The position numbers were made by a program, and so were the translations under genes. From Planctomycetota bacterium (GTDB lineage: Bacteria; Planctomycetota; Planctomycetia; Pirellulales; PNKZ01), in NCBI GenBank assembly GCA_018242585.1, contig JAFEBQ010000009.1, positions 127,690-191,689 on the forward strand: DNA of 64,000 bases, given 5' to 3'. Position 1 is the stretch's first letter; every line of letters starts with the position of its first letter. Shown one piece after another: positions 10,901-28,604 of the stretch. The notes beneath the pieces are model-generated. The model saw only the letters and a list, made by a program, of their open reading frames with translations, searched no databases and was not told where the DNA came from.

Positions 10901-11718
10901 TTCCAATAAGGTCGCGCGGCATTCAGTTCATGGGCTTCGTAAAGCTGCGGTGTCGCTGGCGAAGCGCTGGGGGCCGGGGCAGCTAATGACTTCCAAGAGT
11001 CGTCACCGCCGGTCAGGTCGCTGAGCTTTTGATGTCCCGACAGCAGAATCTGCGCCCAGTCGGTCACGGTCGAATCGGCCGGCGCCGCCTGGGCCGGGGC
11101 CTTGGCGGCGCGCGATGTCAGCGCGCCGGGAGTCTGCCGCTGCTGGCTCAGCCAGCGCAATTCGGTCAACAGCCCATCGATGCCGCGGCCGATGATGAAC
11201 TGCATCACGTAATAGTGAATCCCCTGGTCGTCGCCAACGCCGAACACTGGCACGATGTTCGTGTGGTGCAGACGGGCTGCCGCCCGAGCTTCACGTTGAA
11301 ACCGGGATAATTGCCGAGGATCGAGCAACGTGCTGGCCAGCAGAACTTTCAACGCCACGCGCCGTCCCAGCGAGCCCTGCTCGGCTTCGTAGACCACGCC
11401 CATGCCGCCGCGACCGATCTCGCGCACGATCTGGAAATCGCCCAGTCGCTCCAATCGAGCGTTGACCGGCGCTACGACAGCCCGAGACGCGGGAACCGAA
11501 TGGGCCTCGGTCGCGTCGAAATGGATCGGATCGGACGTGTGGGCTTCGGTGGCGTCGATCAGACGGCGGCGCAGTTCGTCGGCGGCGTGGGGAAACTGAG
11601 CGATGTACGACTCGATTGGCACCGCTTGCCCCAGGTCGCGCAGCCGGTGGAACCGCTCGACCAGTTCCTGGGCGCCGGGCAGGTGGACCGATGTTTGATC
11701 GAGTGGTTCTCGTTCCAT
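7960..11718 (-). CDS. Transmembrane Ser/Thr protein kinase with about 15 kinesin-light-chain TPRs
   Basis: A Hanks-type kinase domain spans about 95-430, with G-loop GRGGMG (102-107), catalytic K124, HRDIKPAN (D near 297), DFGLAK and MAPE. A 70-residue Ala/Pro-rich insert lies between the N-lobe and the HRD loop. A single membrane segment sits near 460-480, then a Glu/Arg coiled coil and about 15 consecutive 42-residue TPR units of the kinesin-light-chain type (…EAEPLxRRAL…LGPEHPDTL…NLA). The Lys/Ala tail is low complexity. All catalytic residues are present, so it should be active. The gene overlaps the CopZ-like gene by ATGA and precedes the WXG100/FtsK cluster on the same strand. Confidence 0.93.
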   Translation of the reverse strand: MEREPLDQTSVHLPGAQELVERFHRLRDLGQAVPIESYIAQFPHAADELRRRLIDATEAHTSDPIHFDATEAHSVPASRAVVAPVNARLERLGDFQIVREIGRGGMGVVYEAEQGSLGRRVALKVLLASTLLDPRQLSRFQREARAAARLHHTNIVPVFGVGDDQGIHYYVMQFIIGRGIDGLLTELRWLSQQRQTPGALTSRAAKAPAQAAPADSTVTDWAQILLSGHQKLSDLTGGDDSWKSLAAPAPSASPATPQLYEAHELNAARPYWNSVARIGYQVADALAYAHSQGVLHRDIKPANLLLDTDGTVWITDFGLAKATDTDNLTQTGDIVGTLRYMAPESFRGQNDARTDIYALGLTLYELIALRPAFDANDRQSLIRQVTQAELPPLRKICPTAPLDLETIVLKALEREPGHRYQSAADMANDLQHFLHDEPITARRASIPQRLARWYRHNPVVARLTILLIVVFLAGFAGVTWKWRESNVLRDEALEQRNEAIEAREDAKLAEGDAKRNAAVSDAFNHFLVREIIEAAAPEKAQGRKVTVEEVLRKVTPRIDAALRDEPEVQAAVHTTVGTTLHRMGDYADAEPHLRRALQIYESILTPDSQDTLAAVNNLAELLKTQGKLAEAEPLYRRSYEARLRNLGEKDPLTLGAQMNLAQLLLARGESAEAEPLFKRAYELYGQTLGEDEPETLLAASSLACAWQAEGKLAEAEPLMTTATKKLATKLGSDAPYTLNAQHNLAVLLKEMGRREDAEKLYSKVLAARTKVLGPEHPDTLVTMNQLAILLQDQGRLREAKPLIEQTLAASQQVFGSDHQQTLVARHNLARLLQAEGKATEAEPLVRANVEACKRTLGPEHPNTLQALANLAMVLQAEGKFDEAEKLLRDVLDAQRRVLGPEHMLTLVTMNNLAVTLQALGKLGEAEPLVRQNYEICRRVLGAEHPDTLLAMSGLGQLFMSEDKWREAEPMIRESYDLHRKVLGPKHPETLNAADDLLSVLMAKAELAEAETLVRSLLETRRQTLGADHPETMRTLDTLVVVLSNEGKQDEVESLLRKALDERTKQLGPLHAETLWAQRNLAAASLREQKWDEGEKLLRSLIEARRAGSAADPAELVETLTMLGEALLNRNRVSEAEPLLREAVEQGNKHLHEGNVHTAEAENTWGACLTKQGKYAEAEPLLIESFAILNLRYGLGSPTRQALQRIVTLYEAWNKPAEATEWRAKLAPTKPVDKASAAKAEPAAKSEPASSKP

Positions 11719-12784: not shown

Positions 12785-14503
12785 TTAATTGCGCCCGATC
12801 AACTTTTGTATTTGCTCCCAGGGACGCGTGTTGGCCACGTCGGCTTTGGCAAGGCCGGCGCGCCTCGCTTGCATGACGCCACAGCGGACCAGCGCCAGGC
12901 TTTCGGTGTCGTGAGCGTCGGTCGAGATCACGATCGGAATGCCATGCTCCTTGGCCATGGCACAATGGATGTCATCCAGGTCAAGCCGCGCTGGGTTGGA
13001 ATTCAATTCCAGCAGCTTGCCGTAATCCGACGCCGCCTGCAGCACCGCGTCGAAGTCCAACTCGTATGGCTTGCGCCGACTGATGATCCGCCCCGTGGGG
13101 TGCGCGATGGCTGAAACATGAGGGGTTTTCAGGGCATCGACAATTCTCGCGGTGATCTGCTCGCGGGGTTGATTCTGGCCGTAGTGGACACTGGCCACCA
13201 CCCAATCGGCCTCGGACAACACGTCATCGTCCAGGTCGAGCCCTCCCTTCTCAAGAATGTCGACCTCGACTCCCTTCAACACCTGAATCTTGCGACGGCT
13301 CTTGTTCAGCTTGTCGATCGCGCGCCACTCGGCGCGCAGCCGCTCGGCGTCGAGCCCGTGGGCCATCGTGACCCGCTTCGAGTGATCGGTGATGGCAATG
13401 TACTTCAGTCCGCGAGCTTCGGCGGCGTCGACCATTTCTTCGAGCGTGGCCTGCCCATCGGTGGCCGTGGTGTGCATGTGCAAATCGCCGAGCAGATCGT
13501 CAACTACAATCAACTTGGGAAGCTTCCCCTCGGCGGCCCATTCGAACTCGCGCCGCGCTTCGCGCAGCTCGGGCGGAAACAACGGCAAGTCGAGCGCCGC
13601 GTAAATCTGTTCCTCGCTTTGCCCGGCAATACTTTTCTCGCCGCGAAACACGCCGTATTCATTGATTTTCAGGCCGAGCCCCTTGGCGCGGGCGCGAAGC
13701 TCGATGTTGTGATCCCTGGAACCGGTGAAATAGAGCAGCGCCGCGCCGAAACTTTCGGCGGGCACCACGCGCAGATCGACCTGCAATCCCGACTTCAAGC
13801 GGAGCGAGAGCTTGGTGTCGCCGCGGCCGATGATGTCGGCCACGCTGGGAAAGCCAGCCAGCCGGTCCATCACGGCATTGGGCTCGTTGGCAATCGCCAG
13901 CAGGTCGACATCGCCGACCGTCTCCTTGCCGCGGCGGTAACTGCCAGCGGCTTCCAGGCGTTCGAGCCCAGGCGCCCCCTGGAGATGGTGCTTCAGCTCG
14001 CGCACGAAGCCGTCCGCTTCGATCCAGTACCAGCGTTTGTTCGCTTCGCCGGCCAGTTCAAGCCCCAGCAGGATCAGTTCCTCGGTTTTCTTGCCAAAAC
14101 CTTTCAGGTGTTGCACGCGGTGTTGCTGACACGCTTCACGCAACTCGTCGAGCGTGCTGATGTTCAGTTCCTTCACCAGCGAAGCCGCCTTCTTCGGCCC
14201 CACGCCAGGAATGCGCAACAAGGCCATTGCCGAGGCGGGCACCTTGCTCCGCATCTCGGTCAACAGCGGCAACTCGCCGGTCGTCAACAGTCCCTGAATC
14301 TTGGCGGCCAGATCGTCGCCAATTCCCTCGATGTCGGTCAACTTCCGCTCGGGGTCGTTGGCCACGCTGCTGATTTGCTCAGTCAAGTCGCGCAATGTCC
14401 GCGCGGCATTACGATAGGCCCGGACGCGAAACGGATTCGCCCCCGTAAACTCGAGCAAACTGGCCAGTTCGTCGAAAGCGTCGGCAATTTCAGAGTTCGT
14501 CAC
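12785..14503 (-). CDS. polX: DNA polymerase X family protein with PHP domain (PolX)
   Basis: The 572-residue protein carries an N-terminal HhH/8-kDa domain with the family opening TNSEIADAFDELASLL, the palm with GDVDLLAI metal aspartates near 200, and a C-terminal PHP phosphoesterase domain starting DLHMHTT near 341. PolX enzymes fill gaps in base-excision repair and the PHP domain gives 3'-5' exonuclease activity. I chose GTG at 14503 because it matches the family start and total length (about 570-580) and follows a GGGAG site; the open frame extends 39 codons further upstream without homology. Confidence 0.92.
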   Translation of the reverse strand: MTNSEIADAFDELASLLEFTGANPFRVRAYRNAARTLRDLTEQISSVANDPERKLTDIEGIGDDLAAKIQGLLTTGELPLLTEMRSKVPASAMALLRIPGVGPKKAASLVKELNISTLDELREACQQHRVQHLKGFGKKTEELILLGLELAGEANKRWYWIEADGFVRELKHHLQGAPGLERLEAAGSYRRGKETVGDVDLLAIANEPNAVMDRLAGFPSVADIIGRGDTKLSLRLKSGLQVDLRVVPAESFGAALLYFTGSRDHNIELRARAKGLGLKINEYGVFRGEKSIAGQSEEQIYAALDLPLFPPELREARREFEWAAEGKLPKLIVVDDLLGDLHMHTTATDGQATLEEMVDAAEARGLKYIAITDHSKRVTMAHGLDAERLRAEWRAIDKLNKSRRKIQVLKGVEVDILEKGGLDLDDDVLSEADWVVASVHYGQNQPREQITARIVDALKTPHVSAIAHPTGRIISRRKPYELDFDAVLQAASDYGKLLELNSNPARLDLDDIHCAMAKEHGIPIVISTDAHDTESLALVRCGVMQARRAGLAKADVANTRPWEQIQKLIGRN

Positions 14504-14607
14504 GCACCTGGCTCCCACGTCAATGGTTGAAATGCGCCTGGGAAGTATTCTTTGGCTCTCGCGTCGCATCTTGCTCTTGAGCAATTCTCTCGCCCGAGCG
14601 GCGAGCG

Positions 14608-14613
14608 TACAAT
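14608..14613 (+). promoter_or_regulatory. Possible -10 element for a leaderless cysteine desulfurase mRNA
   Basis: TACAAT ends seven bases before the ATG at 14620, so transcription would start at or very near the A of the start codon. The -35 region is weak (TTCTCT at 14585 with 17-base spacing). No ribosome site is visible. Confidence 0.35.
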
Positions 14614-14619
14614 GGCCCA

Positions 14620-15834
14620 ATGCCCAACGACACGACGATCTATCTCGACAATCACGCTACAACTCGCGTCGACCCGCGGGTGCTGGCGGCGATGCTCCCC
14701 TATTTCAGCGAGGAGTATGGCAACGCCGGCTCGACGCACCGATATGGACACGTGGCCAAGGACGCCGTTGACGCGGCCCGGCAAGCCATCGCCGCGTCGA
14801 TCGGCGCGCAGCCCCGCGAAATTGTCTTTACCAGTGGCGCTACCGAGAGCAATAACCTGGCGCTGCGCGGCGTGTGCGAACGGCAACCGCTGCGCGGCAA
14901 TCACCTGCTGAGCGTCGTCACCGAGCATCGCGCCATTCTCGATCCGCTGAGCCGGCTGACCAGCCGCGGCTTCGACGTCACGCTGCTGCCAGTGTTGCAA
15001 GCCTACGACCGCCTGGCGGGACGCTTGGAAGTCGATCGGTTTCGCGACGCGCTGACCGACAAGACGGTGCTCGTCTCGGTTATGTTGGCGAACAACGAGA
15101 TCGGCGTGCTGCAACCGATTGCCGAGTTGGCCGCCTTGTGTCGCGAGCGGGGCATTCTGCTCCATTGCGACGCCACGCAAGCCGTCGGCAAAATCGCGGT
15201 TGACGTGCGTGCGCTGGGCGTCGATCTGATGAGCTTTACGGCGCACAAGATTTACGGGCCGAAGGGAATCGGCGCGTTGTACGTGCGGCGCAGCGCGCCG
15301 CCGGTTCGCTTGTTGCCCCAGATCACCGGTGGAGGTCACGAAGCCGGCTTTCGCAGCGGGACGTTGAACGTGCCGGGCATTGTCGGCCTGGCCGCGGCGC
15401 TCGAGCTGTGCCGAGTCGAGCAGGCAACGGAAGCCACGCGGCTCGGCGCACTGCGCGATCGCTTGTTCGCCGGCCTCGAAGCTGCGCTCGGCGGCATTAC
15501 ATTGAATGGCCCCGCCTTGGAACCCGCGCTGCGGTTGCCGGGAAACCTGAATGTCGGCTTTGCCGGGGTCGACGGCGAAGCGCTGATGATGGCCATGAAA
15601 CGTCTGGCGGTCAGTTCCGGCGCTGCTTGCACCTCGATCAATCCCGAGCCGAGTCATGTCCTACGATCCCTCGGCTTGGGGGATGACCTGGCGCGTGCTA
15701 GCTTGCGATTCGGCATCGGCCGATTCAACACCGCCGACGAGATCGAAACAGCCATCGAGTTGGTAACCGAAGCGGTACAACGGCTTCGGCAACTTGCTAG
15801 CAGTGCCGACGTCTCGTGCGCTAAACGCTCGTAA
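14620..15834 (+). CDS. Cysteine desulfurase (NifS/IscS class)
   Basis: This PLP enzyme moves sulfur from cysteine to acceptors for Fe-S clusters or tRNA thiolation. It is 404 residues long. It has the N-terminal YLDNHATT, TSGATESNN, the PLP lysine in HKIYGPKG (about 209) and the active cysteine in SSGAACTS (about 337). The short loop around this cysteine is class I (IscS/NifS-like). There is no scaffold gene (IscU/NifU) nearby. The gene is divergent from polX. No Shine-Dalgarno sequence precedes the ATG, and a TACAAT hexamer lies so close that the message may be leaderless. Confidence 0.94.
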   Translation: MPNDTTIYLDNHATTRVDPRVLAAMLPYFSEEYGNAGSTHRYGHVAKDAVDAARQAIAASIGAQPREIVFTSGATESNNLALRGVCERQPLRGNHLLSVVTEHRAILDPLSRLTSRGFDVTLLPVLQAYDRLAGRLEVDRFRDALTDKTVLVSVMLANNEIGVLQPIAELAALCRERGILLHCDATQAVGKIAVDVRALGVDLMSFTAHKIYGPKGIGALYVRRSAPPVRLLPQITGGGHEAGFRSGTLNVPGIVGLAAALELCRVEQATEATRLGALRDRLFAGLEAALGGITLNGPALEPALRLPGNLNVGFAGVDGEALMMAMKRLAVSSGAACTSINPEPSHVLRSLGLGDDLARASLRFGIGRFNTADEIETAIELVTEAVQRLRQLASSADVSCAKRS

Positions 15835-16019: not shown

Positions 16020-18029
16020 ATGAGCACGGACGAAGCGCTCGACCCAACGCAGGTCGAACAGGCGCAGCGGCAAATTCGTCGGCTGGTCGAACAGACCGCC
16101 CAACTGTCGCGCCAGAACCTGGCGCCCGACGAGTTCTTTGCCCGCTTCCTCGACCATGCGGTCGCGGCCCTGGCCGCGCCGGCGGGGGCGGTTTGGCTGC
16201 GCGATGCCGACGCGGCGTTTGAGTTGGTGGGCCAGCAAAACATTGCCGAGACCGGCCTCGTGCCGTCGGACGAAGCGAGCGACGGCCACCAGGCGCTGCT
16301 ACAAAAGGCGATTACTTCGAGCCGCGGGATGCTCGTCCCGCCGCGCTATCGCGACGAAAACAGCGCGGCCGAAAACCCGACCGAACTGTTGCTGGTCCTC
16401 GCCCCCATTCAACTGAGCGGCGGCGCCGGCGCGGTGATCGAGATTTTTCAGCGCCCTGATTCACTGCCGCGCACCCAGCGGGGTTACCTGCGGTTTCTGC
16501 TGCAAATGAGCGAAATCGCCGCGACTTATCTGCGGCAACGACAGCAGAGCGATTCGCACCAGCGACAGGCCATGTGGCAACGGCTCGAACAGTTTGTCGA
16601 TGCCGTTCACGCCTCGCTCGATCCACAACAAACGGCCTACGCAATCGCCAACGAAGGTCGGCAACTGATCGACTGTGACCGCGTGACTGTGGTGGTCAAT
16701 CGCCACGGACATTGCCAGGTCGAGGCTATCAGCGGCCAGGACGTGTTCGATCATCGCGCGCTGGCGATTCGCCGGCTGGGCGCGCTGGCCGAAGGGGTGA
16801 TCGCCGGCCGCGAGTCGATCTGGTACCGTGGGGTGGAAGTCGAATTGCCGCCGCAGATCGAGAACTTGATGCAAGACTATCTCGATGCTTCGCACGCGCG
16901 GCAGGTTGCCATCGTGCCGATCGTACGCGGCGAGGAAAGCTGCCACGCCAATTGGGTGACGCCAGTCGGCGCGATCGTGGTCGAGCAACTGGGCGACGCG
17001 GCCATCGAGCCGGGCCAGGACGAGCGTGTGGCCACCGTGGCCAAGCACGCCGGTGCGGCTCTCGGCAACGCGCTCGAACATGGCCAACTGTTCCTGATGC
17101 CCCTGTGGCGAGCCATCGGCAACAGCCGCGCGATCGGCTGGCTCAGGTCGCTACCGCGGGCGACGGCCATCGCCACCATGGTCGCGGGCATCGTGGCGGC
17201 GCTAGTCGTGATTCCGTTTCCGCTACGAGTGCAAAGTCCCGGCGCGCTCCAGCCCGTGGTCCGGCGCGATGTCTTCGCGCCGCTCGATGGAACCGTCGAC
17301 GAGATTCGCATCCGCCACGGCCAACAAGTGGCGGCCGGCGAGTTGCTGGTGACGCTACGCAACACCGACCTGGATGTTGCCTTTGCCGACCTGTTGGGAG
17401 AGCGTGAAGCGACAACCGCCCAGTTGCAGGCCATCGAGAGCGAACGCTACCTTGTCGAAAAAAGCCGTAGCGCCTCGGTCGAAGAGCGCAACCGACTGGA
17501 AGGGCGGCGCAGCGAATTGAAGCAACGGCTGATCAGTCTGGACAAGCAACTCGAACTCTCGACGCGCAAGCGCGAGACGCTGCAGGTCAAGGCGCCGGTC
17601 GCCGGCACGGTCACCTCCTGGAATGTCGAACAACTGCTGCGTCAGCGCCCGGTGCGCCAGGGGCAGGCCCTGCTGGGCGTGGCCGACGTGAAGGGTGATT
17701 GGGAGTTGGAACTCCGCGTGCCCGAGCATCGGATGGGGAACCTGGTCGATGCCGAAGCGCGGCAACTGCCAGTGACGTTCCGCTTGGCCACCTCGCCGGG
17801 CGTCGATCACTACGGCACGATCACCGAGGTGCAGCGCTCGGCCGAGGTCCGCGGCGACGACGGCAACACGGTACTGGTGCGAGTGAAGATCGACCGACAA
17901 GCGCTCGGTGATCTGCGCCCCGGCAGCGACGTGACCGCGCGGATCGACTGTGGCTGGCGTCCGTTGGGTTATGTCCTGTTCCAGGATTTAATTGCCTTTG
18001 TCCAGTCGCACGTACTGTTCAAGTTGTAA
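16020..18029 (+). CDS. GAF-GAF-TM-HlyD membrane-fusion protein
   Basis: The 669-residue protein combines two modules seldom seen together. Residues 25-170 and 200-355 look like two cytoplasmic GAF domains. A membrane segment (about 383-403) follows, then a periplasmic HlyD-type adaptor: a biotinyl-lipoyl-like half (VFAPLDGTVDEIRIRHGQ), a coiled coil at about 460-520, the second lipoyl half (VKAPVAGTVTSW) and a beta-barrel. It heads an operon with the next two genes (gaps of about 49 and 47 bases). A plausible reading is an efflux or peptide-export adaptor gated by a cytoplasmic small-molecule sensor. No ABC, MFS or TolC partner is adjacent. Confidence 0.85.
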   Translation: MSTDEALDPTQVEQAQRQIRRLVEQTAQLSRQNLAPDEFFARFLDHAVAALAAPAGAVWLRDADAAFELVGQQNIAETGLVPSDEASDGHQALLQKAITSSRGMLVPPRYRDENSAAENPTELLLVLAPIQLSGGAGAVIEIFQRPDSLPRTQRGYLRFLLQMSEIAATYLRQRQQSDSHQRQAMWQRLEQFVDAVHASLDPQQTAYAIANEGRQLIDCDRVTVVVNRHGHCQVEAISGQDVFDHRALAIRRLGALAEGVIAGRESIWYRGVEVELPPQIENLMQDYLDASHARQVAIVPIVRGEESCHANWVTPVGAIVVEQLGDAAIEPGQDERVATVAKHAGAALGNALEHGQLFLMPLWRAIGNSRAIGWLRSLPRATAIATMVAGIVAALVVIPFPLRVQSPGALQPVVRRDVFAPLDGTVDEIRIRHGQQVAAGELLVTLRNTDLDVAFADLLGEREATTAQLQAIESERYLVEKSRSASVEERNRLEGRRSELKQRLISLDKQLELSTRKRETLQVKAPVAGTVTSWNVEQLLRQRPVRQGQALLGVADVKGDWELELRVPEHRMGNLVDAEARQLPVTFRLATSPGVDHYGTITEVQRSAEVRGDDGNTVLVRVKIDRQALGDLRPGSDVTARIDCGWRPLGYVLFQDLIAFVQSHVLFKL

Positions 18030-18078
18030 GTCGGTCGCGCCCGCGGCGGCCTTGTGATATCAAGAAACGAGTGGTTGC

Positions 18079-18999
18079 ATGTTGCCTGTTAGTTTCTCGC
18101 TCGCGTTGTTGCTGGCCGCGTTTCCGGCTGAGTCGTCTCAACCTTCGGCGGGGCACGCCCATGTCGCCCGGGCGGTGGTCAAGCTAATCGACGATGTCGA
18201 GGTTCCGGCCGAAGAGGCCGGCCGGATGATGGCCGTCCATGTTTGCGAAGGGGACCGGGTCGAAGAAGGAAAGACGATTCTGGCCCAACTCGAAGATTCG
18301 CGCGCCGCGGCGGCGATGCGCATTGCCACCGCTGATTACAAGGCGGCCCAGGAAAAGGCCCAGAACGATATCAACGTCCGCTTTGCCAAGGCGGCCGCCA
18401 ACGTGGCCCAGGCCGACCTGGAGGCCAACCGCGAGGCCAACCGCCGCGTCCCCGGCACGCGACCGGCCATCGAGATGAAAAAGCTTGAGTTGACCTACAA
18501 TCAGGCCGCGCTTCAGATCGAACAGGCGGAGCATGAGCAGTTGGTCGCCATGCTCGAAGCCGACGCCGGCGCGGCCAAGCTGGAAGCGGCCCAGGTCGAT
18601 CTGCGCCGTCGGCAATTGATCGCGCCGCTGAATGGCGAAGTGGTCGAGATTCGCTTCCGTCCCGGTGAATGGGTCCAACCCGGTGACAAAGTGCTGCGCG
18701 TGATTCGCCTGGATCGGTTGCGGATCGAAGGCTCGGTCAACGCCCGAGACTACACACCCGCCGACATCGCCAACCGCCCCGTGACGGTGCGCGTGAAGTT
18801 GTCACGCGGCCGCGAAGAAGTCTTCACCGGCCAGGTGGTGTTCGTGAGCCCGATCGTGCAATTCGGCGGCGACTTTCAAGTGCTGGCCGAAGTGACCAAT
18901 CGCCGCGACGGCGCCGGCTGGCTGTTGCGGCCGGGGATCGAGGCCGACTTGTTGATTGACACTTCTGCGGCCGCCGCTTCGACCGCGCGGCGGCCATAA
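18079..18999 (+). CDS. HlyD/RND-type periplasmic adaptor
   Basis: The 306-residue product has a signal peptide (about 1-18), a lipoyl half-motif (AGRMMAVHVCEGDRVEEGKTI region), an Ala/Glu/Gln-rich coiled hairpin at about 75-180, the second lipoyl half (IAPLNGEVVEIRFRPGEW) and a beta-barrel domain. It is shorter than typical HlyD or AcrA proteins and lacks a membrane anchor beyond the signal. It lies between the GAF-HlyD and PqqD-M50-HlyD genes, so the three adaptor modules probably assemble together. Confidence 0.85.
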   Translation: MLPVSFSLALLLAAFPAESSQPSAGHAHVARAVVKLIDDVEVPAEEAGRMMAVHVCEGDRVEEGKTILAQLEDSRAAAAMRIATADYKAAQEKAQNDINVRFAKAAANVAQADLEANREANRRVPGTRPAIEMKKLELTYNQAALQIEQAEHEQLVAMLEADAGAAKLEAAQVDLRRRQLIAPLNGEVVEIRFRPGEWVQPGDKVLRVIRLDRLRIEGSVNARDYTPADIANRPVTVRVKLSRGREEVFTGQVVFVSPIVQFGGDFQVLAEVTNRRDGAGWLLRPGIEADLLIDTSAAAASTARRP

Positions 19000-19046
19000 T
19001 TCGGCAGGGCCAACGTCAAGCTTTTCTCCACGAGCGCGCGACGACG

Positions 19047-21284
19047 ATGCCAACCTTGGCCCCCAGTATGGTCACCAGCAGCCAGCGCCGGCTGGCGGTG
19101 CGCAAGCGCCCCGATCTGCAGGCCACGCGCCACCGCTACCAAGGGCGGCCTTACTGGATTGTCAAAGATCCGCTCGGCCTGAATTACTTTCGCCTGGAAG
19201 AAGAAGAGTATTTCCTGCTCGATCACCTCGACGGCCAAAACAGCCTGGATGAGATTCGCACGCGGTTCGAGCAGCAGTTCTCGCCTCAGAAGATTCGCCC
19301 GGAAGAACTGGGACAGTACCTGACGACCCTGAGCCGCAATCGGCTGGTGCTGTCCGATGCGTCAGGGCAGGGGCAACAACTTTTCGAGCAGCGCACCGAG
19401 CGCATGAACACGGCTCGGCTACAGCGCTGGACACAGTTGCTCGCCATCCGCTTTCGCGGCTTCAACCCGGACCCGGTGCTCGCTTGGCTGTCGCCGCGCG
19501 TCGGGTGGCTGTTCTCGCCGGCGGCGGTGACGCTGAACGTGTTGTTTGCCCTGTCGGCGCTATTGCTGGTGGGCGTGAAGTTCAATGAGTTCCAGGCCCG
19601 GCTGCCATCGTTCCAGCAATTCTTCACCGTCGGCAACGCCTTTTGGATGCTGCTGGTGATGGCTGGCGTGAAAGTCCTGCACGAGTTTGGTCACGGGCTG
19701 GCGTGCAAGCGGCTGGGGGGCGAGTGCCACGAGATGGGCTTGCTGCTGCTGGTTTTCACGCCGGCCTTGTACTGCAACGTCAGCGATTCGTGGATGCTGC
19801 CCAACAAGTGGCACCGGGCAGCCATTGGCGCGGCGGGCATGTACGTCGAGCTGGTGATCGCGGCCTTGGCCACGTGGCTGTGGTGGTGTACCGCGCCTGG
19901 CTTGTTGAATCATTTGTGCCTGAGCGCCATGTTCGTCAGCTCGGTCAGCACGCTGGCCTTCAATGGCAACCCGCTGATGCGTTACGACGGCTACTACATT
20001 CTGGCCGACCTGCTCGAAGTGCCCAATCTGTCGGCCAAAGCCTCGTCGCTGCTTGGCCGGCGGGCGGGCGAATACTTGCTGGGGCTCGAATTGCCTGACG
20101 ACCCGTTCTTGCCTCGCGAGCATCGGGGCTGGTTCATGGCCTATGCCGTGGCGTCGACCGTGTACCGCTGGCTGGTCGTCTGGTCGATGGTCTTTTTTCT
20201 GAACGAAATGTTCAAACCCTACCGGCTCGAGCTGATCGGACGCGCACTGGGGGCGTTCAGCCTGGTCAGTCTGGTCGGCGTGCCGTTGTGGCGGCTAGTA
20301 CACTTTTTTGCGCGGCCTGGGAGGATCGATCTCGTGCATCCCCAACGATTTCGCTGGTCGCTGGCCATTGCCGGCGGGCTGGTTGCGGCGCTGTTTTTGA
20401 TGCCGCTACCACATCGCGTGTACGGCACGCTGGAACTGGAGCCGCACGATGCCGCACGGCAGTACGTCGAAGTCCCCGGCCGGCTCGTCGAGGTGCTGGT
20501 CAAGCCGGGCGATCGGGTCCAGTCGGGCCAGCCGCTGGCGCGTCTAGAAAATGTCGACGTTGAACTGCGCGTGGCCCAACTGGCCGGACGCTGCGAACAA
20601 CTTCGATCGCAGGTCGCCGCTTTGCGCTTTCGCCGATTCGAGGACGACTCGGCTGCGGTGCGTATTCCCGAGCTGGAAAGCTCGCTGGCCGCGGCCGAGC
20701 AGCAACTGGCCGAAAAGCAACGGGACGTCGCGCGCTTGGAAATCCGCGCTGCCCAGACGGGGACCGTCTTGCCTGCCCCTGAAGTGCCCGAGCCAGCGAC
20801 GACCGAAGGCGAGTTGGTCGCCTGGTGGGGAAGTCCCTTCGACGTGCAAAACCGAGGCTGCTGGCTGACGACGCAGGACATGTTTTGCCAGGTTGGCGAT
20901 CCGCGCTCGATGCAGGCCCTGGCCGTGGTCGAGCAGGCCGACGTTGTCTACCTGCACCCTGGGCAAGTGACTGACGTCCGCCTGGATGCGTTGCCGGGCA
21001 AGACGTTTCGTGGCCGAGTGGTGGAAGTGTCGAGCGACGAGGTGCGCGAGAGCCCGCGCCATTTGTCGAACAAGGCTGGTGGCGAGTTGGCCACCAAGAC
21101 CGACGAACATGGCGCCGAGCGTCCGCAGACGACCTCGTATCACGTGCTGATTTACCCCCTGGAAGGGGCTGACGCGGCTTTGGTCGCCGGGCAGCGTGGC
21201 TGGGCCAAAATCTACGCCCCCTGGCAGCCGCTGGGCTGGCGGGCTGGGCGCTGGTTTGCCCGCACCTTTCAGTTTCGGTTCTAA
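19047..21284 (+). CDS. PqqD-like / M50 site-2 protease / HlyD fusion protein
   Basis: The 745-residue protein has an N-terminal PqqD/RRE-like winged-helix region (about 10-100), a polytopic M50 metalloprotease region with HEFGH (about 212-216) and GNPLMRYDGYYILAD (about 307-321), and a C-terminal periplasmic HlyD half with lipoyl motifs and a coiled coil (about 450-745). PqqD-like domains bind leader peptides of ribosomal peptides, and M50 proteases cleave within membranes, so a peptide maturation and export role is plausible. No precursor peptide, radical SAM or ABC gene is visible nearby. It closes a three-gene operon. Confidence 0.85.
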   Translation: MPTLAPSMVTSSQRRLAVRKRPDLQATRHRYQGRPYWIVKDPLGLNYFRLEEEEYFLLDHLDGQNSLDEIRTRFEQQFSPQKIRPEELGQYLTTLSRNRLVLSDASGQGQQLFEQRTERMNTARLQRWTQLLAIRFRGFNPDPVLAWLSPRVGWLFSPAAVTLNVLFALSALLLVGVKFNEFQARLPSFQQFFTVGNAFWMLLVMAGVKVLHEFGHGLACKRLGGECHEMGLLLLVFTPALYCNVSDSWMLPNKWHRAAIGAAGMYVELVIAALATWLWWCTAPGLLNHLCLSAMFVSSVSTLAFNGNPLMRYDGYYILADLLEVPNLSAKASSLLGRRAGEYLLGLELPDDPFLPREHRGWFMAYAVASTVYRWLVVWSMVFFLNEMFKPYRLELIGRALGAFSLVSLVGVPLWRLVHFFARPGRIDLVHPQRFRWSLAIAGGLVAALFLMPLPHRVYGTLELEPHDAARQYVEVPGRLVEVLVKPGDRVQSGQPLARLENVDVELRVAQLAGRCEQLRSQVAALRFRRFEDDSAAVRIPELESSLAAAEQQLAEKQRDVARLEIRAAQTGTVLPAPEVPEPATTEGELVAWWGSPFDVQNRGCWLTTQDMFCQVGDPRSMQALAVVEQADVVYLHPGQVTDVRLDALPGKTFRGRVVEVSSDEVRESPRHLSNKAGGELATKTDEHGAERPQTTSYHVLIYPLEGADAALVAGQRGWAKIYAPWQPLGWRAGRWFARTFQFRF

Positions 21285-21313: not shown

Positions 21314-21515
21314 TGGTGGCCACGACAACGGCCGTTTAGAGCGAAGCTGCGGGTCGTGGGGGCGGGAAAACCGATTCCAGCCGGGTGATCTGGCGTGAGT
21401 TCACCGAGGGGCGCGGTATTATTACCAAGAGTTGTGCCGCGAACCGAGCCCGGTTCATGCGCCGGCGCAACGCGCCCACGCACGTCGATCAATCGCCTGC
21501 GGAGTTACGCACGCC

Positions 21516-22511
21516 ATGAATACCATCGACTACGTCTATCGCTTTGACCCGAAGAACCCCAGCGTCAAGCTGCTCCCCGCCGATGCCGAAGAGGCCAAGC
21601 GCCGGCTGGAAGAAGGGAACGGACTATTCGCAAGTTGGATGCAAAGTTGCCGCGACCAGGATTGCGCGGGCGACATCGAGCCGCGCTACGTGGTGCAATG
21701 CAACGGTCTGGAAGTGGGCATGGTCCGCAACGAGTGCGAAATGCCCAAGCAGTCGCCGTTTGCCGTGGTCATTGGCTGCTCCGACGCCCGCGTGCCGACC
21801 GAAATGATCTTCGGCCAGGGGTTTAACGACCTGTTCGTGATTCGCGTGGCGGGCAACGTGCTGGGGGACGAGTGCCTGGGTAGCATTGGCTTTGCCTTGA
21901 ACGTCCTCAGCGACAGTGTTCGCGTGATGGTCATGCTGGGGCATACCGGCTGCGGCGCCGTGACCGGCGCGGTCGAGGCTTATCTGCAGCCCCAACGATT
22001 TTGGTCGCGGTCGACACCGCTGATGCTGCGGTCGATTCTGCAACGCTTGTTCGTTCCGGTTCGCGAAGCGGCCAACGGGCTGAAAACGGTCTGGGGCCAG
22101 AACGCCCGCAACATGCCCGGTTACCGCGAAGCGTTGATCCAAAGCGCGGTCTGCATGAACGCGGCCCAGACCGCGTATGACTTGCGATTGGAAGTCGAAC
22201 GATCCGGGAAGTTTGACATTGAAGTGCTATTTGGCGTGTTCAGTTTCCTGTCGCACCATGTCTCGACGCCGGCTTACTTGCGCAACTATCTGAGTTCGGG
22301 CGGAGCGGCCACCGGGCTGGCTTACGCCATGACGAATCCGCGCGACTTCACGGTAATGTCGCAGAAACTGGCCGAGGAACTGCTGGTCACGATGGGCCCC
22401 AAGCGACAGGACGCGCCCCAGGCGAACGCCATCAGCCACGCCGGCAATGGCACCGGCGCCAATGGCGCTCACCAGTCGCGCCGTCGAACCAAGGGCAACT
22501 CGCGCGGTTAA
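21516..22511 (+). CDS. Beta-class carbonic anhydrase
   Basis: The 331-residue enzyme interconverts CO2 and bicarbonate. Zinc ligands are C88, H143 and C146, and the D90-R92 dyad lies in CSDARVP; HTGCGAV carries the other two ligands. It is longer than minimal beta-CAs (about 200-220), with an extra N-terminal 50 residues and a C-terminal 60-residue Asn/Gly/Arg-rich tail. The ATG at 21516 was chosen over an upstream open frame without family similarity. It converges with the Ehr operon, so any link to bicarbonate or pH in that complex is only positional. Confidence 0.93.
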   Translation: MNTIDYVYRFDPKNPSVKLLPADAEEAKRRLEEGNGLFASWMQSCRDQDCAGDIEPRYVVQCNGLEVGMVRNECEMPKQSPFAVVIGCSDARVPTEMIFGQGFNDLFVIRVAGNVLGDECLGSIGFALNVLSDSVRVMVMLGHTGCGAVTGAVEAYLQPQRFWSRSTPLMLRSILQRLFVPVREAANGLKTVWGQNARNMPGYREALIQSAVCMNAAQTAYDLRLEVERSGKFDIEVLFGVFSFLSHHVSTPAYLRNYLSSGGAATGLAYAMTNPRDFTVMSQKLAEELLVTMGPKRQDAPQANAISHAGNGTGANGAHQSRRRTKGNSRG

Positions 22512-22591: not shown

Positions 22592-24043
22592 CTACTGGCT
22601 GGCGCCCACTTCGCGGACGCTTTGCAGGAACGTGACCGCGTCGTTGAGCAGGCCGCGCAGCCACTCGGGTAGGTAAACCCCCAACAGCGTCACGATGGCC
22701 ATGAACACGATCACCGGCGCGCCGGTGAGCAGGCCATCGGGGAACGGCACTTCGGGCTTCGACGGCTTGCCCAGCACGATCGACAGCACGGTCGAACCCA
22801 TGCCAACGAAGATAATCATCAGCATCGCCAGGAATACGGTGGCCAGCACGTAATGGTGATTGGCAAAGGCTTCGGTGACGATGGTGAATTCGCTGACAAA
22901 GGGTCCGAACGGGGGCGAGCCGCAACCAGCCAGGAAGCCCGCCACGAGCAGCGAACTGGACAGTGGCAAACTGGCCATCGCGCCGTGAACTTCGGCGGTC
23001 GACTTGCTTTTGAAGGCGCGGTGGATGTTGCCGGCCGAGAGGAACAACACTCCCTTGGTCATCGCGTTGTTAACCATGTGCAACAGCGAGCCAAAAATCG
23101 CCACCGGGCCGCCGATGCCGATGCCAAACACGAGAATGCCCATGTGCTCGACGCTGGAATAGGCCAGCAAGCGTTTGAAGTCGCGCTGGCGGATCATGAA
23201 CACGGCGGCCGTGGCCATGGACAACAGCCCTAGAAATAGCAGCAATTGCCGCGCATAGGCCGCGTCGCCAGCGGCGTACATGATGTGATAGAACCGCAAA
23301 ATGGCGAAGAACGCCACGTTGGTCACCCCGCCGGCCAATAGCGCTCCGACCAGCCCCGGCGCTTCGCCATAGGCGTCAGGCTTCCAGGTGTGCATCGGGG
23401 CCAGGCCCATCTTGGTGCCATAGCCCACCAGCAACAGCACAAACGCGGCGTGCAGCCATTCCTTGGATAATTGCGGCGCTTCAAGCACCAGGGTTTCGAA
23501 CTGCAGCGTCGATTCACGGCCGGCCGAGTAAGCCAGGAAGAACGACCCCAACAAGGCGATGGCGATCCCCACCGAGCAGATCAACAAATACTTCCAGGTG
23601 GCTTCGATCGAGCGGGGGTTGTGATTGAAGTAGATGCTCGGCGCGCTGATCAGGGTGGTGGCTTCGACCGCGACCCACATCAGCCCCAAGTGATGGGAAA
23701 GGACCACCAACGTCATCGCCGACAATGACATCAGCAAGCAGGCGCACAGCACGCGGTTCGAGCGTTCCGGGCGCAAGCGCAAATAACCGGGCGCGTAGCA
23801 CATGCACAGGAAGTGCATGACACTGATGACCCCGAGGAACAACTTGCCTAGGTCGTCGAGCACGATCCAATCGTCGAGCGCGCGGATGCTTGGGATATTG
23901 AGCGCCTGGATCGTCAACAGCAGGTGCGCGCCCGAACCGAATGGCAATAGCCACGGGCGCAGCCGGTTGGACGGCACCAGCGCCACAATCGCGGCGCAGA
24001 TCAGCGGTACGATCAACAACCCCATCGCCATGCCAGGAACCAT
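22592..24043 (-). CDS. HyfF/NuoN-like proton-translocating subunit of an Ehr/hydrogenase-4-like complex
   Basis: This 483-residue antiporter-like subunit has about 14 membrane segments. It keeps the glutamate of TM5 (MWVAVEATTL) and the TM7 lysine (GYGTKMGLAPMHTWKPDAY), which form the proton channel in Mrp/complex I-type proteins. HyfF is the closest named relative. It is the last gene of the minus-strand operon, 58 bases after hyfE-like, and ends 80 bases from the convergent carbonic anhydrase gene. Confidence 0.85.
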   Translation of the reverse strand: MVPGMAMGLLIVPLICAAIVALVPSNRLRPWLLPFGSGAHLLLTIQALNIPSIRALDDWIVLDDLGKLFLGVISVMHFLCMCYAPGYLRLRPERSNRVLCACLLMSLSAMTLVVLSHHLGLMWVAVEATTLISAPSIYFNHNPRSIEATWKYLLICSVGIAIALLGSFFLAYSAGRESTLQFETLVLEAPQLSKEWLHAAFVLLLVGYGTKMGLAPMHTWKPDAYGEAPGLVGALLAGGVTNVAFFAILRFYHIMYAAGDAAYARQLLLFLGLLSMATAAVFMIRQRDFKRLLAYSSVEHMGILVFGIGIGGPVAIFGSLLHMVNNAMTKGVLFLSAGNIHRAFKSKSTAEVHGAMASLPLSSSLLVAGFLAGCGSPPFGPFVSEFTIVTEAFANHHYVLATVFLAMLMIIFVGMGSTVLSIVLGKPSKPEVPFPDGLLTGAPVIVFMAIVTLLGVYLPEWLRGLLNDAVTFLQSVREVGASQ

Positions 24044-24101
24044 TTGCTTTCGTCCGATGCGTTTCGCGCCGTCGATCGCGCAGTGGGCGATCGCGCCGGG
24101 A

Positions 24102-24770
24102 TCAATCTTTCAAACTCGACAAGTGTTGCGTGCTGTCCGAGGCGAACCCTCGGCTGATGTGGCCGATGATGATTCCCATCACGAAAATACCGACAAACAA
24201 GTCGAGCAGGACGCCGACTTCGACCATGAACGGCATGGCCTCGACCAGCAACAAGCCGAACAAGAACACGCCGTTTTCAAAGACCAGGTAGCCGAGCGCC
24301 TGGGTAATGGCCCGGCGGCGCGTCACCATCAACAAGCACCCGGTGATCACCGTCGACAAGGCCGCCGGCACCACCAGGAACGTGGTGTGGGTATCCGTCT
24401 CGCGCAGTGGCAGCGTCGACGCCAGCACCAGCGAGCCGGCTGTTCCCGCCACACCCAGCAGCAACTGGGGCACAAAGCCAATGATCGGGTGCGTTTCACG
24501 GTCGATCCCCACTTCGCGCAAGGCGTAGATGAGCATCCGTGGAATGACGAACCCCTTGAGGGTCACCGTGCCAGCGCTCAACAGCGCGCCGCGCATGTCG
24601 AAGGCGTCGTTGGCGATTTGATGTACGACCAGCGGGCTGAGCCCGATCAACACCCCTTGCAAGCCGACCAGATAGATCGCCGAGGGCAACCGGCTGGTCA
24701 CCAGCACGAAGAAGTTGAGCAACAACACGAACACCAACTCGGCGTCGAGGACTTGATTCCACTGGTTCAT
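24102..24770 (-). CDS. HyfE-like membrane subunit
   Basis: The 222-residue hydrophobic protein has about six membrane segments and resembles HyfE, an integral component of hydrogenase-4-type complexes. The ATG at 24770 overlaps the stop of the upstream hyfC-like gene as ATGA, which supports this start and translational coupling; an open frame continues 45 codons upstream inside hyfC-like. The tail (HISRGFASDSTQHLSSL) is cytoplasmic and polar. Confidence 0.8.
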   Translation of the reverse strand: MNQWNQVLDAELVFVLLLNFFVLVTSRLPSAIYLVGLQGVLIGLSPLVVHQIANDAFDMRGALLSAGTVTLKGFVIPRMLIYALREVGIDRETHPIIGFVPQLLLGVAGTAGSLVLASTLPLRETDTHTTFLVVPAALSTVITGCLLMVTRRRAITQALGYLVFENGVFLFGLLLVEAMPFMVEVGVLLDLFVGIFVMGIIIGHISRGFASDSTQHLSSLKD

Positions 24771-25702
24771 ATGGTCACCCGCACTACCAGCAAGAACGCC
24801 AGCCCGGCCAACACACAGGCCGTGGCCAACAGTTTCGGCACCTCGGGCATCCGCAGCCTGGCCATGATCGACTCGACCACGCCGATCAGCGCCGCCACGG
24901 CGCAAACCGCCAAAAAGAAGATGCCCCAGTTCAGCCAGGGATCGCTCGTCAACGGCACCGCAATGCGCACCACCAAGGCCGCGAACATCAGCAGCTTGAT
25001 TTCGGCGGCGTAGAGCATGAGCCCCAACAGCGGGCCGCTGTGATCGAGGATGATCACTTCGTGGATCATCGTCAGTTCAAGATGCGTGTTCGGGTCGTCA
25101 AACGGAATACGCGAGTTTTCGGCCAGCATCACGATGAACCAACTGACAATTACTAGCAGCAACGACGACGCGCCGACTTCCCATTCGGACATCATCTTCT
25201 CGTTGAGCATCGTCCCCATCTGAGCGCTCTTGGACAGGAACGCCGTCACCAGCAGGCCGAAGAACAGCGCCGGCTCGGTCAAACAGGCGAAGCTGATCTC
25301 GCGAGCCACGCCCATGCCCTCGAACGGCGACCCGGTGTCGAGCGCGGTGAGCACCAGGAACAGTCGGCTTAGTCCCAGCAGATAGGCGAACAAGATCATG
25401 TCGCCGCCAAACGAGAATGGCGCGTCAGTCCACCCGAACGGCACGATCATGGCCGCCAAAAACGTCGCCACGAACACCACCACCGTGCCCCAGACGAAGA
25501 TGCCCGAGGTGGTGTTGCTGATCACAAAGCCCTTTTGGAACAGCTTGATCAGATCGTAATACGGCTGCCAGATCGGCGGCCCGACGCGCCCGCCAAAGTT
25601 GGCTTTCACCCGATTGATTACGCCGCGCAAAAACGGCGGCAGCAGCAGCACCACCAGGACGTGGATGCCGACGTGTACATAATGAAGATAATCGCTATTC
25701 AC
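24767..25702 (-). CDS. HyfC/NuoH-like membrane subunit
   Basis: The 311-residue subunit links the membrane arm to the peripheral arm. It carries the NuoH/HyfC signature RVGPPIWQPYYDLIKLFQKG near residue 40 and the acidic loop ENSRIPFDDPNTHLELTMIHE, conserved as the proton/quinone-side E-channel of this family. The start is GTG at 25702, 13 bases after the end of the hyfB-like gene. About eight hydrophobic segments are visible. Confidence 0.9.
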   Translation of the reverse strand: MNSDYLHYVHVGIHVLVVLLLPPFLRGVINRVKANFGGRVGPPIWQPYYDLIKLFQKGFVISNTTSGIFVWGTVVVFVATFLAAMIVPFGWTDAPFSFGGDMILFAYLLGLSRLFLVLTALDTGSPFEGMGVAREISFACLTEPALFFGLLVTAFLSKSAQMGTMLNEKMMSEWEVGASSLLLVIVSWFIVMLAENSRIPFDDPNTHLELTMIHEVIILDHSGPLLGLMLYAAEIKLLMFAALVVRIAVPLTSDPWLNWGIFFLAVCAVAALIGVVESIMARLRMPEVPKLLATACVLAGLAFLLVVRVTI

Positions 25703-25715
25703 GCCCAGCGCTCGC

Positions 25716-27725
25716 CTATCGCCACAGGAACAACAAGATCGTGACCGCCATAATGTAAATCAGGTACGCCTGCACGCTCCCCTGCTGGACCCAGCGGAAC
25801 CAGGTCAGGTATTGCGCCGTGCGCCGACTGGCCGGCAACACCGCGTCGTCCAGGACCACGTCGTGTACTTCGACCAGGAACCGCGCGCCCTGGGGGAACA
25901 GCGTGCGCAGATGGGGCAAGTGCCACTGGGGACGCAATGCCCAGCCAAACAGGCGCACCAGCCATTCGGACATGGATGACGCGGTGTATTGCATCCGTGC
26001 CGTCGGCGCGGCATAACCGCAGCCCCACGTGCCGGATCGCTCGGCCCCCTGCGTGTTCATCATTCCCCGCACGACCAGCGTCCCAGCCAGGGTCAGGACC
26101 AGTACCATGAGGTTGATCCCCGTCAGCCAGCCCAGCGGGGCCAGCCCACCAAGCGGCTGGGCCGCCAACGTGGGCCCGGTCCACGCCACGACGGCTTGAT
26201 CAAGGTACGGCGCGACGATCTTCGGCGCTAGGCCCAGAAGCACGCAGATCAGCACCTGAATGCCCATTGGCCACAATATCGAGCCGACCGGGTCGTGAGC
26301 GTGCCGGCCGTGATCGCTGCGCGGGGCCCCCAGAAAAACAATCCCGTAAAAGGTGACGTAACAAGCCACGACCATCGCGCCGACCATCGCCAACGCCGGC
26401 GCGGCCGCCGCGGTCCAGAGCGCGCCTTTGACTTCCAGCGTGCGGAACAGACCTATGTAGATGAACAACTCACTAGTAAATGCGTTCAGCGGGGGCAACG
26501 CCGCAGCCGCCACGACACCGACCAGGATCATCCTCGACGTGATCGGCATCTTTTTGCCCAGGCCGCCCAGCAAGTCCATCCGTCGCGTATGCGTGGCATG
26601 TACAATCGCGCCCGAGCCGAAGAACAGCAGCGACTTGAACACGGCATGATTCAAGACATGTAGCATGGCGCCGCCGATGCCCAAGGCGACCCAATCGGCA
26701 CGGCCATACGAGCGGCCAATCAACGCCAGGCCCAGCCCCATGAAGATCACGCCGATGTTTTCGATCGAGCTATAGGCCAACAGTCGCTTGAGGTCGGACT
26801 GGCCAATGGCAAAGGCAATACCCAACACCCCAGAGATGCCCCCCAACAGCAACACCACCGCTCCCCACCAGATTGGTGGATGCGGAAACAGGGTCAAGAT
26901 GCGCAGCAAACCATAGATGCCCATCTTGATGATCACGCCCGACATGATGGCCGAGACGTGACTGGGGGCCAGGGCGTGCGCGCCAGGCAGCCAAAAGTGC
27001 AGCGGCATGATGCCGGCCTTGCAGCCAAAGCCGATCAACGCCAGGACGAAGATCGCGGCGCTCCAGGCGGCCGAGGTAGTCACGTTGGCGGGCAAGGGAT
27101 CGGTGAATTCAAATGTCCCCGTCACGCCGCGCAACAAGCCGAACAACGCGAACAGCAAGAGCGTCGCCAGATGCGTCGCCACGAGATAAATCCAGCCGAC
27201 CTCGCGGACCTGGGATTCGTGGTCCTCGGTCGTCACCAGGAAGTAGGCCGCCAGCGCCATCGCTTCCCAACCCATCAGAAACAGAATGGCGTTTCGGGAG
27301 ATGACCAGCAGGGCCATGCCCGCGGCCAGCAGACCATAGAAAACTCGCAGCTTACGGCCGTTGTCGGGATGTTCAGATTGAGGCCAGTAGCCAATACCGT
27401 AGATCGTGCCGAGCATCGACACGAGAAAAACTGGAATCAAAAACCAAGCCGACAGCCCATCAATGGCCACGTGAAACTGCGCGCCGGGCAGCGCCCATTC
27501 GTAACGCAACTCCATTTCTTCGCCACCAATGAACCAGCCGAGTGTCGTCGCCAGGCCGAGTAATGCGCCGCCAACCGCCAGCAAAGCCGACAACAATTGC
27601 GGTCCATTCGCGCGGCGCGGCCCCCCCAGCGCCGGCAAGCCGCTGGCGGCCAGCAACACAATGGCCACCAGCAGCCAGTGCAAGACAGTAAAGACTGGGC
27701 TTCCTGTTTCCAGCGCAGGATCCAT
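25716..27725 (-). CDS. HyfB/NuoL-like proton-translocating subunit
   Basis: The 669-residue protein has about 14 core segments plus a C-terminal extension. Motifs include LFLMGWEAMALAAYFLV (TM5 Glu), FGCKAGIMPLHFWLPGAH (TM7 Lys) and HVSAIMSGVIIKMGIYG, as in HyfB/NuoL antiporter subunits. ATG at 27725 gives a membrane-start typical of the family; the open frame upstream lies in the neighbouring gene. It begins only five bases after the stop of the Fe-S subunit gene. The C-terminal residues 560-669 extend past the core toward the lateral helix. Confidence 0.88.
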   Translation of the reverse strand: MDPALETGSPVFTVLHWLLVAIVLLAASGLPALGGPRRANGPQLLSALLAVGGALLGLATTLGWFIGGEEMELRYEWALPGAQFHVAIDGLSAWFLIPVFLVSMLGTIYGIGYWPQSEHPDNGRKLRVFYGLLAAGMALLVISRNAILFLMGWEAMALAAYFLVTTEDHESQVREVGWIYLVATHLATLLLFALFGLLRGVTGTFEFTDPLPANVTTSAAWSAAIFVLALIGFGCKAGIMPLHFWLPGAHALAPSHVSAIMSGVIIKMGIYGLLRILTLFPHPPIWWGAVVLLLGGISGVLGIAFAIGQSDLKRLLAYSSIENIGVIFMGLGLALIGRSYGRADWVALGIGGAMLHVLNHAVFKSLLFFGSGAIVHATHTRRMDLLGGLGKKMPITSRMILVGVVAAAALPPLNAFTSELFIYIGLFRTLEVKGALWTAAAAPALAMVGAMVVACYVTFYGIVFLGAPRSDHGRHAHDPVGSILWPMGIQVLICVLLGLAPKIVAPYLDQAVVAWTGPTLAAQPLGGLAPLGWLTGINLMVLVLTLAGTLVVRGMMNTQGAERSGTWGCGYAAPTARMQYTASSMSEWLVRLFGWALRPQWHLPHLRTLFPQGARFLVEVHDVVLDDAVLPASRRTAQYLTWFRWVQQGSVQAYLIYIMAVTILLFLWR

Positions 27726-27730
27726 CGTAT

Positions 27731-28522
27731 CTATCCCTGCCTTGGCGCCGCGGCGGCCGGCGTCCCTTCGAGTCGTCCTAACAATCGCAGAATGCCATCC
27801 AGGATCGTCCACGGGCTCGGCGGACAACCGGGCACATACAAGTCGACGGGCACCACCCGATCGCAACCTTGCTGGACAATCTGATGGCCAATGTACGGCC
27901 CCCCCGAAATCGCGCAGGCGCCAACGGCAATCACGACCTTTGGCGCTGGCATGGCCTCGTAGGCCTGGAGCAGCGCGTACTTCATGTTGTCGGCCACTGG
28001 ACCGGTGATCAGCAGCCCATCGGCATGACGCGGCGACGCGACGAACTGGATGCCGAACCGCTGCAGGTCGAACACCAACGTGTTCAACACGTTCACATCA
28101 GCTTCACAAGCGTTACAGCCCGAGGCGCTCACCTGGCGCAGCTTGAGCGAACGGCCGAACAAGCGGCGGGTCTTGGCGTCGAGCGCGTCGGCCAACTCCA
28201 GCTTTCGCTTGGCCGAAACCACCAGGTCTTCACGAGTTCGCGTCGACAGCCGGTACTCGGTCGTGTAACGCATCGCACCGCTGGGGCAGGCTTGCTGGCA
28301 ATCGACGCAAAACAGGCACTGCCCAAGATCGAGCTTCAACTCGCCATCGTTGCTCAGCGCGTCGGTCGGACAGGCGTCGATACACGCGCGGCAGCCATCC
28401 TCGCACTTGGTGTCGTCGATGACCGGCAGCCCGCGAAAGCGATCCGCCACCGCCGGCGGCTTGGCCGGGTAGGCGGCGGTGCGGTGTCCTTGGCGCAGAC
28501 GCTCTCGAATGACGTCGAACAT
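27731..28522 (-). CDS. Fused HyfH-HyfI-like subunit: 2x[4Fe-4S] ferredoxin plus NuoB-like
   Basis: The 263-residue protein joins two normally separate subunits. The N-terminal ferredoxin module has two cluster motifs (C40, C44, C47, C51 and C69, C72, C75, C79). The C-terminal NuoB/small-subunit module keeps C136-x2-C139 (GCNACE), C203 (GAC) and C233 (PGCPP), the ligands of the proximal [4Fe-4S] cluster. It should pass electrons from a ferredoxin-like chain to the large subunit. ATG at 28522 follows GGAACGAG; an in-frame GTG 15 codons upstream is an alternative. Confidence 0.85.
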   Translation of the reverse strand: MFDVIRERLRQGHRTAAYPAKPPAVADRFRGLPVIDDTKCEDGCRACIDACPTDALSNDGELKLDLGQCLFCVDCQQACPSGAMRYTTEYRLSTRTREDLVVSAKRKLELADALDAKTRRLFGRSLKLRQVSASGCNACEADVNVLNTLVFDLQRFGIQFVASPRHADGLLITGPVADNMKYALLQAYEAMPAPKVVIAVGACAISGGPYIGHQIVQQGCDRVVPVDLYVPGCPPSPWTILDGILRLLGRLEGTPAAAAPRQG

Positions 28523-28604
28523 GCGATGCTCGTTCCAGTCTTGGCAATCCAGGCGATCGACCACCACGGCGCGGGCTGGCGGCCATCACCGACAAGTCCC
28601 ATGC

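Follow-up and report, generated by a model that had tools for sequence, protein, structure and literature searches.

We consider it fairly likely that the three genes described here encode the core, in inner membrane and periplasm, of a SecA2-driven, ABC-less, type-I-like exporter, in which an RRE domain reads the LEPR-XLL leader of the cargo and an M50 domain does the processing or gating. The genes lie in a 64,000-nucleotide stretch of a planctomycete contig (JAFEBQ010000009.1; hereafter the window), from a genome of 5.57 Mb that is 99.9% complete. Very large surface proteins (giants) are encoded by planctomycetes and many proteobacteria, and the secondary-SecA locus reported in 2015 is a machine without a cargo; a concrete hypothesis arises when these are put together. 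If true, RRE-guided recognition would no longer be confined to small peptides but would include proteins that are thousands of residues long.

The same gene set, together with a secondary SecA_DEAD gene, was described as a type-I-secretion-related locus by Kamneva, Poudel and Ward 2015 (PMC4452313), who called its biological role completely unknown and reported that unlinked SecA copies occur; a term search of that paper gave no mention of PqqD or of giant proteins. It was the only directly relevant publication found for PqqD+M50+HlyD, LEPR-XLL, DUF3467, DUF4347, daptides and giants, in a search that most subscription papers and all preprints fell outside, and in the same literature no stated function was found for the LEPR-XLL motif. 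The anatomy of the gene set is thus already published, whereas the searched literature gives no cargo for it. What we propose as new is the cargo and its recognition signal, i.e. a link between LEPR-XLL and the RRE/M50 exporter.

Gene layout and conservation of the trio

Three co-directional ORFs at window positions 16020–21284, separated by gaps of 49 and 47 bp, encode a GAF-HlyD protein, a HlyD protein and a PqqD-like/M50/HlyD protein (Table 1). Pfam and NCBIfam models place HlyD in all three, in agreement with the initial annotation, which had further counted two GAF domains in the first protein; one of these is recognized by Pfam (residues 201–348), while the other (residues ~33–170) is GAF-like by eye with no Pfam match. 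The trio is conserved across relatives: of 47 named loci that were defined around the M50 gene and are 15 kb or longer, 43 contain the middle HlyD gene and 38 the GAF-HlyD gene. The 306-aa HlyD protein starts with a signal-like hydrophobic stretch (residues 1–19, by hydropathy), and hydropathy suggests a cytosolic location for GAF and RRE and a periplasmic one for the adaptors. Matches to the HlyD model of NHLP bacteriocin secretion (TIGR03794) reached at most 30.2 bits, against a curated cut-off of 156.2.

The initial annotation had also reported the lack of an ABC transporter and an outer-membrane channel. Neither adjoins the trio, no ABC transporter was found among the scanned flanking ORFs and no ABC family recurs beside the trio, but a SecA2 ATPase and TolC-like channels are encoded in homologous loci and elsewhere in the genome. 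Giant, SecA2, TolC-like and DUF3467 genes are likewise absent next to the window trio, and SecA gave no match on the window, which therefore lacks the secondary SecA_DEAD gene of the published locus. The window trio is an orphan, and its partners, if any, are elsewhere in the genome.

Directly downstream, a carbonic anhydrase-like protein is encoded (21432–22511, plus strand) that is not a recurrent neighbor in homologous loci. The minus strand of the window encodes a 1326-aa FtsK/EssC-like ATPase (1991–5971; T7SS EssC/EccC models 1e-29 to 1e-33, far below cut-off), a Ser/Thr-kinase-like protein with many tetratricopeptide-like repeats (7960–11718, from sequence reading), a Family X DNA polymerase with a PHP domain (12785–14620) and a cluster of complex-I/hydrogenase-4-like membrane subunits (22592–30236, from reading only).

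Table 1 Features of the trio locus, in window coordinates; residue numbers refer to the respective protein.
Feature	Position	Strand	Basis or description
GAF-HlyD protein, 669 aa	16020–18029	+	Cytoplasmic GAF part, one TM (residues 384–402), periplasmic HlyD adaptor (residues 418–635)
GAF domain, residues 201–348	16620–17063	+	PF01590 3.5e-6
Possible second, divergent GAF-like domain, residues ~33–170	16116–16529	+	Sequence pattern only
HlyD/RND-type periplasmic adaptor, 306 aa	18079–18999	+	PF13437 2.1e-13, TIGR01730 1.5e-26
RRE(PqqD-like)-M50-HlyD fusion, 745 aa	19047–21284	+	Domain matches, fold matches, conserved residues
RRE/PqqD-like winged-helix domain, residues 16–105	19092–19361	+	Fold and profile matches
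Polytopic M50 site-2-protease domain, residues ~150–455	19494–20411	+	RseP and SpoIVFB fold matches; hydropathy
HEFGH zinc-site motif, residues 212–216	19680–19694	+	H212, E213, H216 invariant in 43 sequences
NPLMRYDG motif, residues 308–315, with putative third zinc ligand D314	19968–19991	+	N308, D314 invariant; P309, L310, G315 nearly so
HlyD/MacA-like periplasmic adaptor, residues 452–734	20400–21248	+	MacA Z 17.0 (455–726)

An RRE fused to a membrane protease and an adaptor

As a single sequence, the N-terminus of the 745-aa protein is barely PqqD-like (E = 0.0067 to TIGR03859). PF05402 was matched by 11 of its 43 relatives, and the best two PDB matches of a 30-sequence N-terminal profile were TfuB1 (1.2e-3) and PqqD (5e-3). 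As the adaptor filled the Foldseek matches of the full-length model, the N-terminal domain was modelled and searched separately. The AF2 model had a mean pLDDT of 86.9, with values of 93–97 over residues 21–100, and could be aligned with leader-bound TbiB1 (5v1v; Z 10.9, rmsd 2.8, 86 residues), TfuB1 (6jx3; Z 10.4) and PqqD (5sxy; Z 8.5). It displays the winged-helix fold with an N-terminal three-strand sheet that is expected of the RRE/PqqD superfamily. The domain is assigned the RRE fold, which bears out the PqqD-like N-terminus claimed by the initial annotation, and is regarded as a putative leader binder.

The HEFGH membrane protease noted at the same time also stands. M50 is weak in the window protein by Pfam (24.7 bits, cut-off 27.2) and was found in 42 of the 43 relatives, and fold comparison matched RseP (Z 10.7, residues 189–324) and SpoIVFB (Z 9.6), both within residues 142–389. 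In the 43 relatives, which extend down to 21% identity, invariance covers the HExxH motif, the distal aspartate and N306, the first position of the N-x-NP...DG residues (306–314). Judged by these positions, the site-2-protease core is intact.

Kamneva et al. proposed the M50 protein to be a pore (PMC4452313). It is conceivable, if rather doubtful, that the M50 fold serves as a translocation pore or scaffold without working as a protease, with the RRE recognizing a leader that is never cleaved: the absence of an ABC channel would fit such a role, whereas the invariance of HExxH and the distal aspartate in such divergent relatives argues for catalysis.

Paralogues, plasmid cassettes and partner genes

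Including the window copy (C9), the genome encodes five relatives of the 745-aa protein, the others being found at C30, C29, C16 and C6. SecA2 adjoins the paralogues at C30 and C6, an OEP/TolC-like gene those at C29 and C16, and GAF-HlyD homologues occur at C30 and C29. A stand-alone SecA2, 53% identical to the C30 copy, is located at C42, and DUF3467 at C35 and C50. At C29 there is a further SecA match, which falls into three parts of a 1,253-aa frame and probably represents the housekeeping SecA.

On proteobacterial plasmids the genes form a cassette that comprises a giant, usually as its first gene, often DUF3467, then GAF-HlyD, RRE/M50/HlyD, usually SecA2, HlyD and TolC; SecA2 or the GAF adaptor was found beside the RRE/M50 gene in 8 of the 10 plasmid loci fetched first. 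No SecA2 was seen nearby in the Azospirillum, Burkholderia, Variovorax, Cupriavidus and E. coli cassettes, and the energy source may therefore differ there. The E. coli cassette (L188; NZ_CP060066.1, 28454–45530, on an IncHI1B plasmid) encodes an Ig-like 3,668-aa giant with a LESRQLF leader, TolC and three HlyD proteins; neither SecA2 nor the GAF adaptor was seen in it, and relatives are also carried by Citrobacter and Hafnia plasmids. Two near-complete loci of one genome of the planctomycete phylum (L213 and L214, G113:C1) contain DUF3467, GAF-HlyD, RRE/M50, OEP and HlyD; the former also has a LEPR-like giant, the latter SecA2, and both would be good model loci. A more divergent M50-HlyD clade (about 30% identity; L039, L040, L043, L056) includes some members with OEP or SecA2 neighbors.

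The three adaptor modules, the TolC-like channels and SecA2 that are conserved alongside the protease speak against a device for envelope stress or regulated proteolysis, in which GAF would control the cutting of a membrane regulator by the M50 part, with the HlyD modules acting only as sensors or scaffolds. Both GAF domains and S2P proteases are frequently encountered in signalling systems. From M. extorquens expression data, Kamneva et al. suggested a regulatory role for the GAF protein (PMC4452313). Among the gene families common to at least four homologous loci, however, there was no anti-sigma or regulator family, nor a RiPP-modifying family or an RND pump, the last having been considered by the initial annotation as a possible conserved, unrelated partner. 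We regard regulated proteolysis as improbable, and membership of the trio in an ABC-less, type-I-like exporter as highly probable.

Giant proteins with LEPR-XLL leaders as candidate cargo

The cargo of this exporter is probably the giants with LEPR-XLL leaders. In 15 of 16 proteobacterial cassettes, LEPR-XLL was found near the N-terminus of the giant, following a basic leader. All of the first six N-termini carried it (LEPRVLLNAD, IEPRILLSAD from Thalassospira, LEPRFLLSAD, LEPRLLLSAD, LEPRFMFDAA and LESRQLFDGA), as did the giants of 9 of the 10 cassettes fetched afterwards: LEPRYLLSAD in the near-duplicate Ensifer and Sinorhizobium giants (9,023 and 9,022 aa), LEPRLLLSAD in Rhizobium, LEPRLLLAAD in Alisedimentitalea, LEPRMMFDAA in Tistrella, LEPRLLYDAA in Cupriavidus, LEPRVVYDAS in Burkholderia, LEPRFMFDAA in Azospirillum lipoferum and LEARYMFDAA in Variovorax (encoded by a gene of 48.7 kb). 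In the remaining cassette, of Phyllobacterium (L219), the adaptors are encoded together with a large protein that lacks the motif. Two flavors can be discerned, LLSAD and MFDAA-like, of which the latter, as far as the few cassettes indicate, goes with those showing no SecA2.

Planctomycete giants beside the loci similarly have a basic leader followed by L-E-x-R-x-[LVM]-[LM]. As these GC-rich loci contain many spurious large antisense ORFs, expected motif counts were derived from shuffles: 12 of 51 ORFs of at least 900 aa in planctomycete neighborhoods had the motif within their first 150 aa, vs 0.4 expected, and its frequency in shorter ORFs was near expectation. The highest average hydropathy over 17 residues (KD17) was at most 1.4, and mostly below 0.8, in a set of 21 leaders, whose Arg+Lys content was 13–34%; there is therefore no classical Sec signal-peptide core, and the composition would fit a route other than an ordinary Sec signal peptide. 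In the genome containing the window, the LEPR-XLL model (NF012209) gave sub-threshold matches only (E up to 10), which is explained by the looser motifs of the local giants (LEKRRVL, LEDRTLM); the leader at C29, for example, ends in LEKRRVLSVN. These LEPR-like giants lie away from the window trio.

The initial annotation had envisaged a peptide maturation and export machine. Leader recognition, processing and export are still the best reading, while a small peptide is probably the wrong cargo. A small gene is indeed conserved near homologous operons, as had been anticipated for a precursor, in 15 loci by the first clustering, in 16 of the 47 long loci by profile and in several proteobacterial cassettes, but it encodes DUF3467 (about 110 aa), which is not precursor-like; no solved relative was found for it by profile search, and a role as adaptor or chaperone is a guess. 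A RiPP-type system, in which the RRE and M50 protein mature and export a small modified peptide from an unannotated precursor, could draw on several precedents: an RRE combined with a membrane M50 protease is known in RiPP pathways, M50 proteases take part in epipeptide and pearlin maturation (PMC10885120), and the best NCBIfam match of the 745-aa protein is daptide_HExxH (NF041824; 7e-49), at 166.9 bits far below the 300-bit cut-off. Considering that no RiPP-modifying family recurs among those common to at least four loci, that the small conserved gene is DUF3467 and that the cassettes are headed by giants, such a system seems very unlikely, and giants remain our preferred cargo.

Co-occurrence of RRE/M50 and LEPR-XLL proteins

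With NCBI's own LEPR-XLL model (NF012209), genomes of the phylum were compared for the presence of both proteins; the p-values in the following ignore phylogeny. In a first set of 149 genomes, the RRE/M50 protein was present in all 14 with LEPR-XLL over the model cut-off vs 16 of the 135 others (p 9e-12). In a set of 392 genomes, which contains most of the first, 45 of 51 LEPR-XLL genomes encoded it vs 44 of 341 others (p 1.4e-27), LEPR-XLL here being accepted at E up to 0.05 with 49 of the 51 over the cut-off. The association also held outside the class of the window genome (31 of 37 vs 20 of 315, p 4.5e-25), and 22 of the 25 families with LEPR-XLL also had RRE/M50. As the two are encoded on different contigs in several genomes (e.g. 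G008, G010 and G036), linkage alone does not explain the co-occurrence. As a control, the Big_9 domain, which is widespread among giant surface proteins, showed no association with RRE/M50 (10 of 59 genomes, p=0.84). DUF4347 by itself marked RRE/M50 genomes less well (6 of 11, p=0.009). Conversely, 44 of the 89 RRE/M50 genomes, the window genome among them, had no LEPR-XLL protein at the threshold used.

Proposed mechanism

The giant would carry, in place of a classical signal peptide, a basic leader at its N-terminus that ends in LEPRxLLSAD, LEPRxMFDAA or a similar motif. The cytoplasmic RRE of the 745-aa protein would bind this leader, as RREs bind RiPP leaders, and we lean towards LEPR-XLL as its ligand. 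The chain would be pushed by SecA2, in the window genome probably by the copy at C42 or the one at C30, both unlinked, and DUF3467 might assist as a small adaptor or chaperone; the polytopic M50 part would cut the leader or gate membrane entry. The three HlyD modules would connect to a TolC-like channel as the passage of the giant to the cell surface, and the GAF part, attached to one adaptor in the cytosol, could tune assembly or activity to a small ligand. Owing to its orphan layout, the window copy would work on giants encoded elsewhere.

Leader cleavage by the M50 part is about as likely as not. The hydrophilic leaders speak against it, given that proteases of this family typically cleave close to membrane helices. 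Against the exporter as a whole, SecA2 alone, without a membrane channel, leaves the translocon unaccounted for. The broader view, in which the RRE/M50/adaptor protein selects giants by their N-terminal LEPR-XLL leader and passes them, with a dedicated SecA as the driving force, into an adaptor-TolC conduit, its signal and machinery being separate from Sec/Tat signal peptides and from ABC-type type I secretion and found in Planctomycetota and Proteobacteria, plasmids included, has in our estimate an equal chance of being right or wrong.

Comparison with known systems

The window trio shares with the locus of Kamneva et al. the grouping of M50-HlyD, HlyD and GAF-HlyD genes and the phylum, and related loci have SecA_DEAD and occasionally OEP; the window copy differs in lacking an adjoining SecA gene. 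Type I secretion systems (HlyB-HlyD-TolC) likewise combine HlyD-type adaptors and TolC-like channels with large adhesin-like cargo, whereas here no ABC transporter recurs, the candidate signal is the N-terminal LEPR-XLL and a SecA2-like ATPase and an RRE/M50 protein are found instead. As in the RRE-dependent leader peptidases of RiPP pathways (lasso B1/B2), a TbiB1/TfuB1-type RRE is linked to a protease, but an M50 membrane metalloprotease fused to an exporter adaptor replaces the cysteine protease, and the cargo candidates are giants. The M50 proteases of daptides and of YydH/LiaK epipeptides are also membrane HExxH proteases, and the daptide model aligns with residues 29–419, including the RRE-like part; in contrast to these, the 745-aa protein falls below both curated cut-offs and has a C-terminal HlyD module. 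The LEPR-XLL domain (NCBIfam NF012209), finally, is the motif present in the cargo candidates.
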